Origin: Chloroflexota bacterium
Lineage (GTDB): Bacteria; Chloroflexota; Anaerolineae; Anaerolineales; Villigracilaceae
Assembly: GCA_016865985.1 (NCBI GenBank)
Contig: VGNO01000006.1
Span: forward strand, 1 to 37,342
Length of the DNA stretch: 37,342 nt
Direction of reading: 5' to 3'
How positions within the stretch are numbered: position 1 is the first letter of the stretch; every line of letters starts with the position of its first letter. The notes under the pieces were generated by a model that was given only the letters and a program-made list of their open reading frames with translations, was not told the origin of the DNA and did no database searches. Below are positions 2,243-9,028 of this stretch, piece after piece. A program made the translations under genes and the position numbers.

Positions 2243-4561
2243 TCAGGCTCCGCCCTGCAGGTTGGCCAGCAGGTTGCGGTAGGAATCGATTTTGGCCGGG
2301 CCCAGGCCGATGATCAATTCCACCGTGCGGATGGCGCCCCCCCGGTCGCCGCCGTCGAGCAGGAGTTCGGCCAGGGCGTCCAGTTGGGCGACGGCCTCCT
2401 CCGTCCGCCCGGCCAGGCGGTATTCCTCGGCCAGATAGGTGCGCAGGGTGTCCTGGTTGGGGGCTTCGCCGGCCAGGTTCTCGAGGAAGGGGATGGCCTC
2501 CGCCCGCCGCCCGGCGCTCTCGAGGTAGGCGGTGTAATTCTCGATCTCGGCTGCCGCCTGCCCCTTCTGTCCCAGGCGCAGGTTGATATCGACCAGGTTC
2601 CTGCGGGTCGGCTGTTCGTCCGGCTGGAGGGTGCGGATCTGCTCGTAGACCCGCAGCGCCTGTTTCCAGTCCAGCCGCTGCATGTCGATGTCGGCCATGC
2701 GGCGCAGGATGCGGACACTCCATTCGCGGTTGGCGCTCGATTGCTGGGCGGTGCGCAGGGCGATGGTGTAGGTCTTGCGCGCCATGTCCAGTTCGGCCAG
2801 GCGGCAGTAGATGTCCGCCAGGTCGATGTATTCGTTCAAGGCTTCGTCCAGCTGGCCGCGGGCGCTCAACTGCTCGATCAGCCGGGTGCGGGTCGGCAGG
2901 TCCATCGGCGCCAGTTGGATGATGCGCTTGAGGGTATTGGCGGCCTGGACGGATTCGCCCCGCACGTTGTAGGCCTGCGCCACGACGCTGAACTTGGCGA
3001 TGGCGTCCTGGGTGCGGCCTTCCCGGATGAGGATGTCGCCGATCAGGGCGTGCAGGGGCAGGTAGGTGGGGGCATAACGCAGGGCGGTGAAGGCTTCGTC
3101 CATGGCCGAGCGCAACCGCCCGGCGCGCGCCAGTTCGTGGACGCTGTGGATGGCGCCGATCACCTGGCTGCTCTGGGCGTGCGCCAGCATTTCGGCCAGC
3201 GGGGTGGGCGGGGCGCCGTCCGCCGCCTTCGGCAACTGGCTGCGGGCCTGCGAGACCTTGCTGCGCCAATCCGGCTGGAGCAGCAGGTCGCTCACGTTCT
3301 GGCACAGGCGTTCCATGGCCTCGGTGTCGGTCTCGGCAGACTGGGCTTCGACCAGCGGTTCGTACAACTGGCGCAGGCTGTCGGCCTGGTCGGCGGGGAC
3401 GACGGCCGCGTCGGCGCACTTGAGCGCCTCCATGTATTCGACCACGGCCTCCTTCAAGCGTCCCATCTGGAGGTAGACGCCGCCCATTACCAGCCGGGCG
3501 CCGAGGGCGTAATCCTGGTGTTTGACGGAGCGCTGCAGGTTGCGCAGGGCGCTCTCGAGGCGGTTGGCTTTGAAGCGCAGCAGCCCCAGGTCGAAGTAGG
3601 CAGCCGGTTCCTTGAAACCGGCTTCGATGGCTTTCTCCAGTTCCTCGGCGGCCTGGGCCTCCTGGCCGTTGGTCTGTTCGTCGATGGCCTGGCTGAGGTG
3701 GAGCAGGATGCGGGTGCGGTCGTTCTTCTGCAGGGACAATTGGCCGGTGGCGCCGCGCATGATGGCCTGCATCCCGCGCCGCGCCGCGGCCGGGCTGCCG
3801 TCGTCGGAATACTCGAACAGGACTTCCGCCAGGCGGGTGAGCGCCTTCTGGCGCGCCTCCGAGACCGGGTCCAACAGGCGTTCGGCCGGCTGGGTCTTCC
3901 CCATTTCCTTGACCTGTGACATGCGCAGCGGCCCGGTGCCGCCCTTGGAACGCGCCGGGACCGGCAGCAACTGCCCGCTCTTGAGCAGGGATTGCGCCTG
4001 GCGCGCTTCGGCGCTGGCGGGCATCAGGCGCAGGGCGCGTCCCACCATTTCGGCGCACTTATCGGCCTGTCCGGCGCGCTGCAACAGGCTGGCGATCGCC
4101 AGGTATTCGGTCACCGCCTGCTGGGTGTGGCCGAGTTTCTCGTGCACCATGGCCAGGTTGTTATGGGCAGGGATGTGGCCCGAGTCCAACTGCGTCACCC
4201 GCAACCAGTTCTCGATGGCCTTGTCGGCTTCCTGGGTGCGGATATAGAGGTCGGCGGCCTGCATGGCGGCCTGCACCGCCCCCTTCAGGTCCCCCAGGCG
4301 CTCGGAAAGCTGGGCGATTTTTTCGAGCGGGATCGGGTCGACGGGCGAGACCTGCGCCGCCCGGCGATAGGATTGCAGCGCCTCGTCGTAACGTTGCAAC
4401 TGGAAGAGCGCCAGTCCCAGGTTGGATAGCGCCTTCGGCTGGTCGGGGATCTCCTCCAACGCCTGCCGGTAGGACCGGGCGGCGCGCTCCCAGTCCTGGT
4501 CCCAGGCCGCCGAATGGCCGGCGCTCATGGCTTGCAGGAATACTTCTTCACGTCCGGGCAT
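2243..4561 (-). CDS. Large tetratricopeptide-repeat protein (772 aa)
   Basis: Many TPR-like units (e.g. AWDQDWERAARSYRQALEEIPDQPKALSNLGLALFQLQRYDEALQSYRRAAQ). Confidence 0.92.
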   Translation of the reverse strand: MPGREEVFLQAMSAGHSAAWDQDWERAARSYRQALEEIPDQPKALSNLGLALFQLQRYDEALQSYRRAAQVSPVDPIPLEKIAQLSERLGDLKGAVQAAMQAADLYIRTQEADKAIENWLRVTQLDSGHIPAHNNLAMVHEKLGHTQQAVTEYLAIASLLQRAGQADKCAEMVGRALRLMPASAEARQAQSLLKSGQLLPVPARSKGGTGPLRMSQVKEMGKTQPAERLLDPVSEARQKALTRLAEVLFEYSDDGSPAAARRGMQAIMRGATGQLSLQKNDRTRILLHLSQAIDEQTNGQEAQAAEELEKAIEAGFKEPAAYFDLGLLRFKANRLESALRNLQRSVKHQDYALGARLVMGGVYLQMGRLKEAVVEYMEALKCADAAVVPADQADSLRQLYEPLVEAQSAETDTEAMERLCQNVSDLLLQPDWRSKVSQARSQLPKAADGAPPTPLAEMLAHAQSSQVIGAIHSVHELARAGRLRSAMDEAFTALRYAPTYLPLHALIGDILIREGRTQDAIAKFSVVAQAYNVRGESVQAANTLKRIIQLAPMDLPTRTRLIEQLSARGQLDEALNEYIDLADIYCRLAELDMARKTYTIALRTAQQSSANREWSVRILRRMADIDMQRLDWKQALRVYEQIRTLQPDEQPTRRNLVDINLRLGQKGQAAAEIENYTAYLESAGRRAEAIPFLENLAGEAPNQDTLRTYLAEEYRLAGRTEEAVAQLDALAELLLDGGDRGGAIRTVELIIGLGPAKIDSYRNLLANLQGGA

Positions 4562-4570
4562 GGGTGTATT

Positions 4571-7363
4571 TTACCCGACAACCTGCATCTCGCCCCAGTT
4601 CAGGCCGGCGCGGGCTTCGGTCTCGAGCGGGATGTCCAGCCGGTAGGCGGAGGCCATCACTTCCTTGACGAGCCGCACGGTGGCTTCCAGTTCGCGGCGC
4701 GGGCACTCCAGCACCAGTTCATCGTGCACCTGCAGCAGCATCCGGCCTTCCAGTTTCGCAGTCTCGAGCGCCGGCGGGATCTTCAACATGGCGATCTTCA
4801 TGATGTCCGCCGCCGTGCCCTGGATCGGGGCGTTGATGGCCTCGCGTTCCTCACGGTTCTTCAGGTTGCGGTTCATCTGTCCCATCAGGGCCGGGAAGTA
4901 GCGGCGGCGGCCCAACAGCGTCTCCACGTACCCCAGTTCGGCGGCGGACCTGCGGATGCCGTCGAGGTATTTCTTGATGCCCGGGAATTCGCGGAAGTAT
5001 TCCCGCACGAAGTCCTCGGCCTCGGCCAGCGTCAACTCGGTGGTACGCGTCAGCCCGAAAGCCGACATGCCGTAGATCAGGCCGAAGTTGATGGCCTTGG
5101 CGTGGCGGCGCTGGTCCTTGTCCACCTGGGCAAGCGGGATATTGTAGATGGCGGCGGCGGTGGTGGCGTGGATGTCCTGCCCGGCGCGGAAGGCGGCCAG
5201 CATCCCGGCGTCCTGCGCCATGTGCGCCACGATGCGCAGTTCGATCTGCGAATAATCGACCGAGAGCAGGACGTTCCCGTCCCCGGCGATGAAGCCGTTG
5301 CGGACGCGGCGTCCCAGGTCGCTGCGGATGGGGATGTTTTGCAAATTCGGGTTGTTGGACGAGAGCCGCCCCGTCACCGCCCCGATCTGGCTGTAGGAGG
5401 TGTGCACGCGCCCGGTCTTTTCGTCCACGGCCAGCGGCAGGGCATCCACGTAGGTGGATTTCAATTTCGAGAGTTCGCGCTGTTCCAGCACCATGTCCAC
5501 CACCGGGTGCTGCCCGCTCAGGGCTTCGAGCACTTCGGCATTGGTGGAGTAGAAACCGCTGGCGGTCTTCCAGGAGGCATCGGGTTTGAGGCCGATCCTG
5601 TTGAAGAGCACATCCGACAGTTGCTGGGTGGAATTGATGTTGAACTCCCGCCCGACTGCGGCGTAGACATCCCTTTCGATCCCAGCCAGGCGCGCCGCCA
5701 ACTCGACCGACATCTTTTGGAAAAACGGCAGGTCGAGCAGCACGCCGGTCATTTCCATCTCCGCCAGAACCGGCGTGAGCGGCATGTCAATCTCGTCCAT
5801 TATTTTTTCACCGCTCACGCGTTTAACTTCCGCCTGCATGATGGGCAGGAGCCGCAGCGTGGACTCGGCGTCGGCCGCGGCGTAGGGCGCGACCCGATCG
5901 ACCGCCACGTCCGCCATGCTGACCTGTTTCCTGCCCTTGCCGATCAGGTCCTCGATGTGGGTCATCTCCGCCCCGAGGCGGGTGAAGGCCAGGTTCTTGA
6001 GTCCCATGTTGCGCGATGACGGGTCGACGACGAACTCGGCCAGCATCGTATCGAAGGTGATCGGTTCCACCCGCAGGCCGTGCTTCGCCAACACGATGAA
6101 ATCATATTTGGCGTTGTGCGCCACTTTGCCAATCTTCGGATTCGTCATCGACGGGCGCAGGGCCGCGAGCGCCTCCGCCAGCGGCAGGTTCTGCCCGATG
6201 CGGTGCCCGACCGGGATGTAGATGCCCTCGCCTTCCTGCACTGCCAGCGAAATGCCGACCAGGTCCGCTTTCATCTCCTCGGTGGAGGTGGTCTCGGTGT
6301 CGAAGGCGACCACCCTGGCAGCCTTCAATTCGGCGGCCAGCGCCGCCAGTTTTTCACCGGTATCGACGATGCGGACGGCGATGGACGATTCGACCAGCGG
6401 CGCGGGGACATTGGAGGCGGGTGTCTCGAACAGCGACAACTGCCCGCTGCGCTCCCGCCCCCGGGCCGGGGCGGCGGCCGGCGCCCCGGTCAACGCCTCG
6501 ACCTTGCCTACCAGCGAGCGGAACTCCAGTTCGTTCAGCAGGGCGGTCACGCTGGCCGGGTCGAAGTCGCGGGCGCGCGCCCGTTCCAGGTCCATTTGGA
6601 GCGGCAGGTCGGTGCGGATGGTGGCCAGGTCGCGGCTGAGGTAGGCGGATGCGCGTCCCGCCTCCAGTTTCACCCGCCAGCGGTTTTCCACCTCCTCCAG
6701 GTGGGCATAGACTTCATCCAGCGTGCGGTATTTGCCCAGCAGGCCGAGGGCGGTCTTTTCACCCACGCCCGGCACGCCGGGGATGTTGTCGGACGGGTCG
6801 CCGACGATGGCTTTGTAGTCCACCACCTGTTCCGGGCGGACGCCGAACTTGCTGGCCTGCACATCCTCGGGCGTGACGTAGGTGCGGTCGTCGCCCGCCA
6901 CGTAGACCGCCGTGCGTTCGTCCACCAGTTGCAACAGGTCGCGGTCGCCGGTGACGATCCTGACCCCCAGCCCCTGCCGCCCGGCCTGGCGAGCCACAGT
7001 GCCGAGCACGTCATCGGCCTCGTAACCTTCCATTTCCAGGCGCGGGATGTTGAAGGCGTCCACCAGTTGCCGGATGCGCTCGATCTGCAGGCGCAGGTCG
7101 TCGGGCATCTTTTCGCGGGTGGCCTTGTAGGCAGGGTAGAGTTGGTCGCGGAAGGTCTTGCCGGTGTCGAAGGCTACCGCCAGGTACTCGGGCTTGTCCT
7201 GCTCGAGGATGCGCACGAGTTCCCGGGCAAAACCATACGTGCCAGCGGTCGGTTCGCCCTTCGAAGTCTGCCAGCGCTGGCTGCCTGCGCCGCCGGAGGT
7301 CAGGGCGAAGTACATGCGGTAGGCCAGGGCGTGGCCGTCGATCAGGTAGAGGATGGGGGGCAT
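4571..7363 (-). CDS. polA: DNA polymerase I with 5'-3' exo, intact 3'-5' exo and polymerase domains
   Basis: 5' nuclease motifs EGYEADDVLGT/TGDRDLLQLVD; exo DTETTS, HNAKYDF, YAAADAEST; polymerase DYSQIELRI, KAINFGLIYG, QVHDELVLE. Confidence 0.98.
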   Translation of the reverse strand: MPPILYLIDGHALAYRMYFALTSGGAGSQRWQTSKGEPTAGTYGFARELVRILEQDKPEYLAVAFDTGKTFRDQLYPAYKATREKMPDDLRLQIERIRQLVDAFNIPRLEMEGYEADDVLGTVARQAGRQGLGVRIVTGDRDLLQLVDERTAVYVAGDDRTYVTPEDVQASKFGVRPEQVVDYKAIVGDPSDNIPGVPGVGEKTALGLLGKYRTLDEVYAHLEEVENRWRVKLEAGRASAYLSRDLATIRTDLPLQMDLERARARDFDPASVTALLNELEFRSLVGKVEALTGAPAAAPARGRERSGQLSLFETPASNVPAPLVESSIAVRIVDTGEKLAALAAELKAARVVAFDTETTSTEEMKADLVGISLAVQEGEGIYIPVGHRIGQNLPLAEALAALRPSMTNPKIGKVAHNAKYDFIVLAKHGLRVEPITFDTMLAEFVVDPSSRNMGLKNLAFTRLGAEMTHIEDLIGKGRKQVSMADVAVDRVAPYAAADAESTLRLLPIMQAEVKRVSGEKIMDEIDMPLTPVLAEMEMTGVLLDLPFFQKMSVELAARLAGIERDVYAAVGREFNINSTQQLSDVLFNRIGLKPDASWKTASGFYSTNAEVLEALSGQHPVVDMVLEQRELSKLKSTYVDALPLAVDEKTGRVHTSYSQIGAVTGRLSSNNPNLQNIPIRSDLGRRVRNGFIAGDGNVLLSVDYSQIELRIVAHMAQDAGMLAAFRAGQDIHATTAAAIYNIPLAQVDKDQRRHAKAINFGLIYGMSAFGLTRTTELTLAEAEDFVREYFREFPGIKKYLDGIRRSAAELGYVETLLGRRRYFPALMGQMNRNLKNREEREAINAPIQGTAADIMKIAMLKIPPALETAKLEGRMLLQVHDELVLECPRRELEATVRLVKEVMASAYRLDIPLETEARAGLNWGEMQVVG

Positions 7364-7465
7364 GGTTTCTAGTATGAATCTGAACGCGGAGAGCGCAATC
7401 CTCGCAGCGGAACGGGGCTGGCGTGTGGCTTGCGGTCTCCGCGGTCGAATGGTCGCCAGCGGCGT

Positions 7466-9028
7466 TCAGGGCTGGAAGGGCTGGGATATCCCTTGCTGCT
7501 GGCGGATCTGGATGATGAATTCCTTGATCAACTGGGCCGGCGGCGGCTGTGAACCGCCCATGATCAGGTTGCCCACAGCCCAGAAATCGCCGGATGGGTT
7601 CTCCCGCAGGAAGCGCGGGAATTCGGCGAAGATCTTGTCGGAGAGTTTCTGGCGCATGACGCGCATCAGGTGTCCCGGGGAGGTGGTCGGCGGGACGCTG
7701 GCGATCCACAACAGGTAATCTGGGCGGATGGAGATGTATTCCAGCCGCCAGGCATAGGCCACGCACACCTGCGGCAGCCAGAGCGCGACCTGGTCCGAGA
7801 GCCCGCCGGTCAGGTGGTGCTGGGGGAAACGCGGGATCAGCAGGCAGGCGTAATTCAGGTTGTAGACCGAGGGCGAGACCGGTTCGAGCACGATCCGCCG
7901 CGCCGCTTCGGAGACCGAGCGCGGGCGGGTGTCCTCCAGGTTTTCCTGGGCGGCGCGTTTCTTCTGCGGGGCGCTCTTGCGGGTGACGGCCAGGTCGGGC
8001 GGCGTCTCCACCCCGGTCCCGGCCTGGAAGGGGTCTTCCTCTTCGGTGTAGATCAGCGCGCCGCGCCGGATGGCCGGGGAACTCTCACGGCTGAAAACCG
8101 CCGGCCGGTCTGCGCCCAGGCGGATCTCTTCGATGCCGTTGTCCTGGTAACCGAGTGGCGGCGGCAGGGGGTTGGGCGGCGGGAGGCTGCCCAGGATGTC
8201 CGCCAGCGGGGTCATCGGCGGCAGTTCGTCCGGGTCGGCCTCGGCGGTGGAGGCGGCCTCATCGACCGTGGCGGCCGAGAGCGAGCGCACCAGGCTGCTG
8301 GCCTGGGAGCGGATGGTGGTGAAGGAGGTCTCGACATCGAAGATGAGCGAGAGCGTCATGCCGGGCGCCAGGAAAGTGGCGTAGAGCATGTATTCGGCAT
8401 TGGTGGTCGAGAGGCGGATGAAACGCACCAGGTTGCTTCTATCCTGGTGGTCCCAGTAGCGCGCCACGGTCGCAGCCAGTTCGCGTGCCGCCGCCTGGGG
8501 CAGTTCACCGGCATATGCCCACAGTTCGTCGTCGCGGGTGATGAGCGCCGCCTGCGAGGCCGATGCGAGCGTCAGGCGGGTCAGGTGTTGGGCGGCGCGG
8601 TTCACGTCCTGCAACCAGGACAGGCCGTCTGCAGGCTGTCCCGCCGGGCGGGATGTTTCCGGGTCGGCGCGCCACACGGCCGAGAACTTGGTCAGCATTT
8701 GCAGCAGGTCGGGCAGGTAGAAGGGTTTGGGGAGGTAGCCATAGGGGGAAAGTTCGTCGACCGGCGGCTGCCAGCCGTCGTCGGCGAGGATGACGAACTG
8801 GATATCCGGCTGCGCCTGGCGCAGCGAGCGCCCCACTTCCAGGGCGCTTTCGACCTGGTTCCCGGTATCCAGGAAGACGATCGCCGGCTGCTCAGCCTGG
8901 ACATAGGCGCTGGCGGCGGCGTGACTGCCCGCCAGGCCGACGCGGTAATCGCCGGTCTCTTCCAGACTCTGGCGGATGAGTTCCCCGAATGCGGTATCCT
9001 GCGTCACTACCAGGAGCGGCATCTTCAT
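7466..9028 (-). CDS. Response-regulator-like receiver domain protein with C-terminal IS200/Y1-transposase-like domain
   Basis: N-term MKMPLLVVTQDTAFGELIRQSLEE..AIVFLDTGN..YLPKPFYLPDLLQML (receiver-like); C-term YNLNYACLLIPRFPQHHLTG...IRPDYLLWIASVPPTTSPGHLMRVMRQKLSDKIFAEFPRFLRE...AQLIKEFIIQIRQQQG matches the TnpA (Y1) layout. Confidence 0.75.
   Translation of the reverse strand: MKMPLLVVTQDTAFGELIRQSLEETGDYRVGLAGSHAAASAYVQAEQPAIVFLDTGNQVESALEVGRSLRQAQPDIQFVILADDGWQPPVDELSPYGYLPKPFYLPDLLQMLTKFSAVWRADPETSRPAGQPADGLSWLQDVNRAAQHLTRLTLASASQAALITRDDELWAYAGELPQAAARELAATVARYWDHQDRSNLVRFIRLSTTNAEYMLYATFLAPGMTLSLIFDVETSFTTIRSQASSLVRSLSAATVDEAASTAEADPDELPPMTPLADILGSLPPPNPLPPPLGYQDNGIEEIRLGADRPAVFSRESSPAIRRGALIYTEEEDPFQAGTGVETPPDLAVTRKSAPQKKRAAQENLEDTRPRSVSEAARRIVLEPVSPSVYNLNYACLLIPRFPQHHLTGGLSDQVALWLPQVCVAYAWRLEYISIRPDYLLWIASVPPTTSPGHLMRVMRQKLSDKIFAEFPRFLRENPSGDFWAVGNLIMGGSQPPPAQLIKEFIIQIRQQQGISQPFQP

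Follow-up and report, generated by a model that had tools for sequence, protein, structure and literature searches.

The window, by which we mean the whole stretch of 37,342 nucleotides that was analysed, contains a gene whose 520-residue product ends in a transposase-like segment and begins with a receiver-like one. The question it raises is whether a transposase has become a resident part of a host protein here, and what its domain could then be doing.

A TnpA fold at the end of a receiver protein

A first-pass annotation had read the last ~135 amino acids (7466-7873) as IS200/IS605 TnpA-like, and Pfam, NCBIfam and profile-profile comparisons all agree. Pfam Y1_Tnp matched residues 387-486 at 2.8e-6 when the whole protein was used, which is above cut-off, and the C-terminal 135 residues alone gave 1.4e-7. 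The NCBIfam IS200 transposase model matched residues 387-505 at 2.7e-9, scoring 37 bits where the cut-off is 55. Y1_Tnp was present in 37/37 relatives (best value 2.7e-15, Pfam). Compared as a profile with four TnpAs of the same class, the family C-terminal domain gave an E value of 1.1e-28 over 131 columns, and against the PDB it matched TnpA chains with E values down to 6e-21.

A structure model was built with AlphaFold2 using 53 relatives. The receiver and the middle domain were modelled with confidence, and the C-terminal domain with moderate confidence, its elements following the order found in TnpA. In Foldseek, the full-length model retrieved mainly receiver structures. With residues 134-520, TnpA structures ranked first (2ec2, 2f4f, 2xo6; also 2vic), at a TM of about 0.6 by target, placing the C-terminal domain in the Y1 fold. 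We conclude that this domain is homologous to IS200/IS605 TnpA. Positions of the domains and neighbouring features are given in Table 1. Members such as those of G038 and G004 exceed the NCBI cut-off for 'IS200/IS605 family transposase', and therefore proteins of this kind may stand annotated as mobile elements.

Table 1. Features of the fusion gene and its surroundings (positions in the window).
Feature	Positions	Strand	Evidence
Whole gene, 520 aa: REC - Roadblock-like - linker - HUH-less TnpA domain	7466..9028	(-)	ORF, Pfam, AlphaFold, Foldseek
Receiver domain, residues 1-118	8675..9028	(-)	Pfam Response_reg 6-112, Foldseek receiver structures, residue counts
Predicted Roadblock/LC7-like domain, residues about 134-256	8261..8629	(-)	Foldseek; weak Pfam Robl_LC7, relatives only
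Linker, residues about 260-383, mostly disordered, fastest-evolving	7880..8251	(-)	pLDDT, dN/dS
Domesticated TnpA (Y1_Tnp) domain, residues 386-513	7490..7873	(-)	Pfam, NCBIfam, Foldseek, tree, profile comparisons
Former HUH motif, Y438-L439-L440 (relatives usually Y-L-Q)	7709..7717	(-)	Residue counts, common alignment
Former nucleophile helix, F504..R509	7502..7519	(-)	Residue counts, common alignment
polA (DNA polymerase I), conserved downstream neighbour, 102-bp gap	4571..7363	(-)	
TPR-repeat protein gene, usually third in row	2243..4561	(-)	
Hairpin-forming stretch, gap before polA, stem CGCGGAGA/TCTCCGCG	7382..7446	(-)	Folding, comparison with relatives

The receiver-like N-terminus announced by the same annotation was also recovered: Response_reg matched residues 6-112 at 3.8e-5, under the curated cut-off, and Foldseek returned receivers. 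This Pfam family was found in 21/37 relatives. In two sets of relatives, Asp54 is kept in 36/37 and 53/53 sequences, and Lys101 in 31/37 and 52/53. Positions 9-10, which we take to be the counterpart of the CheY acidic pair for Mg2+, read T-Q in the window protein and mostly T-P in relatives. Because the acidic pair is missing, phospho-signalling by this receiver appears doubtful, as judged from its residues. The layout is that of response regulators with unusual outputs, an N-terminal receiver followed by an effector-like C-terminal domain; unlike in those proteins, the acidic pair has been lost and no cognate kinase gene was seen adjoining the fusion gene.

The long linker described earlier is a linker in part only. 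A disordered stretch does follow the middle of the protein (AlphaFold2 pLDDT <50 at residues 291-389), but residues about 134-256 are predicted to form a Roadblock/LC7-like domain, as Foldseek places them with MglB, MP1/p14 and Ragulator (E about 1e-5 to 1e-4); hence not everything between receiver and TnpA domain is linker. The likeness to Roadblock/LC7 proteins such as MglB and MP1/p14 lies in the modelled fold, whereas sequence similarity is at the edge of detection: Pfam Robl_LC7 was found in 1/37 members, at 0.0013, and one REC-Roadblock relative gave 2.6e-4, under cut-off. This domain and the linkage to polA had both been overlooked. In the deep relatives L237, L240, L241 and L242, insertions of hundreds of residues with no Pfam match separate receiver and Roadblock-like domain; the one read through, in L237, is acidic and disordered-looking.

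The HUH motif is lost throughout the family

Catalytic positions were counted in a common alignment of 146 family rows (50 order-level sequences, 6 solo paralogues, 10 from outside the order and 80 from the genome_contigs set, samples that partly overlap), TnpA rows being limited to those with clear TnpA sequence. What HUH, Tyr and Q131 do in Y1 transposases has been described, as have the Y---Q and Y---NP motifs (PMC6006769). HxH was found in 0/146 family rows (partly overlapping samples), compared to 8/9 genuine nearby TnpAs, and a few family members retain a single His. The site reads Y-L-L in the window protein, in keeping with the reported change from DHxHLL to DYLLWI, and no homologue of the fusion carries HxH, so that the loss is consistent across the family. 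The loss of the nucleophile, claimed at the same time, is true of the window protein, where position 504 is F, but it does not extend to the relatives: among the best 80 of the 182 genome_contigs relatives, the residue is Y in 61/80 and F in 19/80. HUH loss is thus a family trait and Tyr loss is not. At position 508, that of the third metal ligand, the window protein has I and the genome_contigs set mostly T or I, and the residue that follows (R509) is Arg in 145/146 family rows. The family shows neither the Y---Q context of functional TnpA, with F or Y at the Tyr position and mostly T or I at that of Q, nor the intact HUH with Y---NP that is the signature of TnpAREP.

The window copy (7466-7873) differs from its family at near-invariant positions (P485V, Y487N, Q440L, D409G), and its tree branch is longer than those of its nearest relatives.

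A probable single capture, followed by vertical inheritance

Relatives were found in 56/61 related genomes, a few of them matching by the first two domains only. A scan of genome_contigs with the single sequence found no relative; an alignment-based scan yielded 182 stretches, of which the best 80 are titled Anaerolineae, Anaerolineales or Chloroflexi. Full fusions outside the order occur in families f34, f48, f60, f62 and f69 of the class sample. Outside class Anaerolineae, the phylum sample contained stand-alone TnpA-length matches only. In the samples searched, the fusion was therefore found only in class Anaerolineae.

In a tree with nine active-type TnpAs, a small sample, the dead TnpA domains group together as a single clade (100/99). 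Six short or partial dead copies branch within the family and have the appearance of more recent duplicates. Short paralogues of 169-200 aa, consisting mainly of the dead TnpA domain, were seen elsewhere in the genome (L071:5618-6199, L072:5935-6441, L062:2231-2752, L073:5728-6327, L074:2683-3201), and the tree places these within the family as well. Between close pairs, dN/dS of the TnpA domain is mostly 0.01-0.06, the lowest of the protein, while values are mostly 0.01-0.13 for the middle domain, 0.05-0.3 for the receiver and 0.1-0.5, the highest, for the linker. The reading frame is open in 80/80 genome_contigs loci (best 80 of 182). In place of the multiple copies and varying locations of a mobile element, there is usually one fusion gene per genome, fixed at polA. 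The TnpA-domain protein is thus shown to be inherited vertically and under very strong purifying selection, and the domestication proposed in the first-pass annotation is borne out by a single-copy gene free of IS context. In all likelihood, the HUH-less TnpA domain was captured once, before the fusion-bearing Anaerolineae orders diverged.

REC and middle domain are all that the gene at polA encodes in families f2 and f7. As deeper relatives have the TnpA domain, its loss in f2 and f7 is the simplest reading. The polA-upstream genes L037:5955-6914, L048:5799-7109 and L052:2569-3489 encode receiver and Roadblock-like domain without TnpA domain, and the L037 and L048 proteins end in K-T-G-[ED]-L-type repeats.

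The fusion gene lies upstream of polA

In 70 of the 79 loci that could be judged, the fusion gene is found directly upstream of polA on the same strand, with a median gap of 111 bp, and polA is usually followed by the TPR gene. The same arrangement is seen in other families of the order, in some with 2-6 bp from stop to start, and in several relatives outside the order. Protein distances of the fusion gene product and of PolA are correlated (Mantel r 0.80, 0/500 permutations, n = 65), which shows shared descent, not shared function; gene neighbourhood with polA is likewise no proof of a common function. At nine loci the fusion gene is away from polA. In three of these, L127, L132 and L141, its neighbour in the opposite direction is a gene that by eye resembles radA.

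What the TnpA domain may do

The reading that we favour, with a probability of roughly 0.4, is that the TnpA domain would no longer cut DNA and would form a rigid docking unit, probably a dimer, that still touches structured ssDNA (gaps, hairpins, fork-like ends) as TnpA does, in the service of Pol I or of repair. The Roadblock-like domain would dimerise or recruit partners, the eroded receiver could be an interaction module or weakly phospho-responsive, and the whole protein would probably serve to tether or regulate Pol I, or else DNA repair, where there are gaps or lagging-strand structures. We infer such docking near Pol I from published work (PMC5371812): the substrate of IS200/IS605 TnpA is ssDNA of the lagging-strand template, and the IS608 enzyme binds both fork-like DNA and the beta clamp. 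The TnpA fold, the absence of HxH, the single clade, the lowest dN/dS, the presence in 56/61 genomes, and both synteny and co-divergence with polA argue for it. Against it stand the net charge of the domain, which is modest at about +3 within the order (TnpA has about +5) and negative, about -5 to -5.5, in deep relatives, and families f2 and f7, which lack the domain at polA. No conserved beta-clamp motif was found in the family. The bolder proposal, that a class-wide, once-domesticated transposase reads single-stranded or forked DNA without catalysis and works with Pol I as a lineage-specific replication or repair factor, seems to us rather unlikely.

The acidic domain of the deep relatives, the adjoining Roadblock-like domain and the absence of the TnpA domain at polA in f2 and f7 would also suit a TnpA fold kept solely as a protein-protein or dimerisation platform, a scaffold comparable to Roadblock-domain scaffolds and free of any nucleic-acid role. 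This is a real if tentative possibility, which has to accommodate the conserved basic residues R400 and R459, at K/R positions of TnpA, and the extreme degree to which the domain, over its entire length, is conserved within the order.

The gap before polA suggests a further alternative, in which the protein regulates polA and its own operon in an atypical manner, by binding an intergenic hairpin as DNA or RNA. Over 58 folded gaps the mean z was -3.6, compared to -0.5 upstream of the gene (mononucleotide shuffles). In several genera, CGCAGAG-TATAAT-n-CTCTGCG followed by a T-rich tract lies between fusion gene and polA (for example L110:9663-9684 and L134:9632-9653). It is present in exactly one copy per genome in 34/120 family genomes, just after the fusion gene wherever gene positions could be compared. 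The broad stem pattern GCGCAGAG..CTCTGCG is also found elsewhere in genomes, and only the TATAAT-loop form is locus-specific. TnpA relatives do bind hairpins near their own genes (PMC8266576); for TnpAREP, cognate palindromes are many, and the TATAAT-loop hairpin is single-copy per genome. The T-rich tract and the -10-like loop, however, suggest a terminator overlapping the polA -10 box, which is the plain reading. The candidate hairpin stands beside the gene in several genera and is absent from other families, and gaps of 2-6 bp leave no room for it. It is thus a possible target of the dead TnpA domain, one that cannot be general, and regulation through it is unlikely. Rfam applied to six representative loci returned nothing but one RNase P RNA.

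Continued ssDNA cleavage by the Tyr, metal-independent or through a rebuilt site, could be argued from the Tyr kept by most of the 80 best relatives, but other residues stand at both His positions and, mostly, at that of the third ligand, and Y swaps freely with F, making this very improbable. A functionless, decaying transposase fusion, to which the missing catalytic residues and the deviating window copy might point, is refuted for the family by its dN/dS, open frames and class-wide age, and is hardly credible.

Relation to known systems

With IS200/IS605 TnpA (class 1 Y1; IS608, ISDra2), the family shares fold, sequence profile, a conserved Trp and the order of elements. It differs by the absence of HUH, a mostly replaced third ligand, the fusion to REC and Roadblock-like domains, and a single copy at polA with no sign of mobility. 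TnpAREP/RAYT is likewise a Y1 transposase turned host gene, usually single-copy (PMC8266576), but it still has HUH and Tyr, and the REP copies on which it acts are many, whereas here the metal site is gone and one single-copy hairpin is the candidate. TldR proteins, described as RNA-guided transcription factors (PMC13418256), are also IS200/IS605 proteins reused in a dead, nuclease-less form; they derive from TnpB, a protein unrelated to TnpA.

In the open-licence papers searched, no description of a receiver-Y1 fusion or of an HUH-less Y1 family was found. The 2018 survey of Y1 proteins excluded unexpectedly long ones and those without core motifs (PMC6006769), and a family of HUH-less fusions would therefore be hidden from it. 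Domesticated Y1 transposases known so far (TnpAREP) retain their catalytic site; here only the fold has been kept, across the class, and no other part of this chromosomal protein is conserved so well. The adjacency of the gene to polA is a hint that Anaerolineae, a large and little-studied class, may have a replication or repair helper so far overlooked, and the stability of this position raises the question of whether a transposase targeting the lagging-strand template became a host replication or repair factor. If so, such a factor would descend from an IS200-type transposase and be wired to receiver and Roadblock domains.

Three other Y1 proteins of the same genome (L001, L002, L003) keep H-x-H and a Y---NP-like motif, and are TnpAREP-type in look. 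Two stand-alone TnpA-like proteins, PDB 2fyx (DR_0177) and L249:1357-1740, read D-Y-V-H, the first HUH His being absent.
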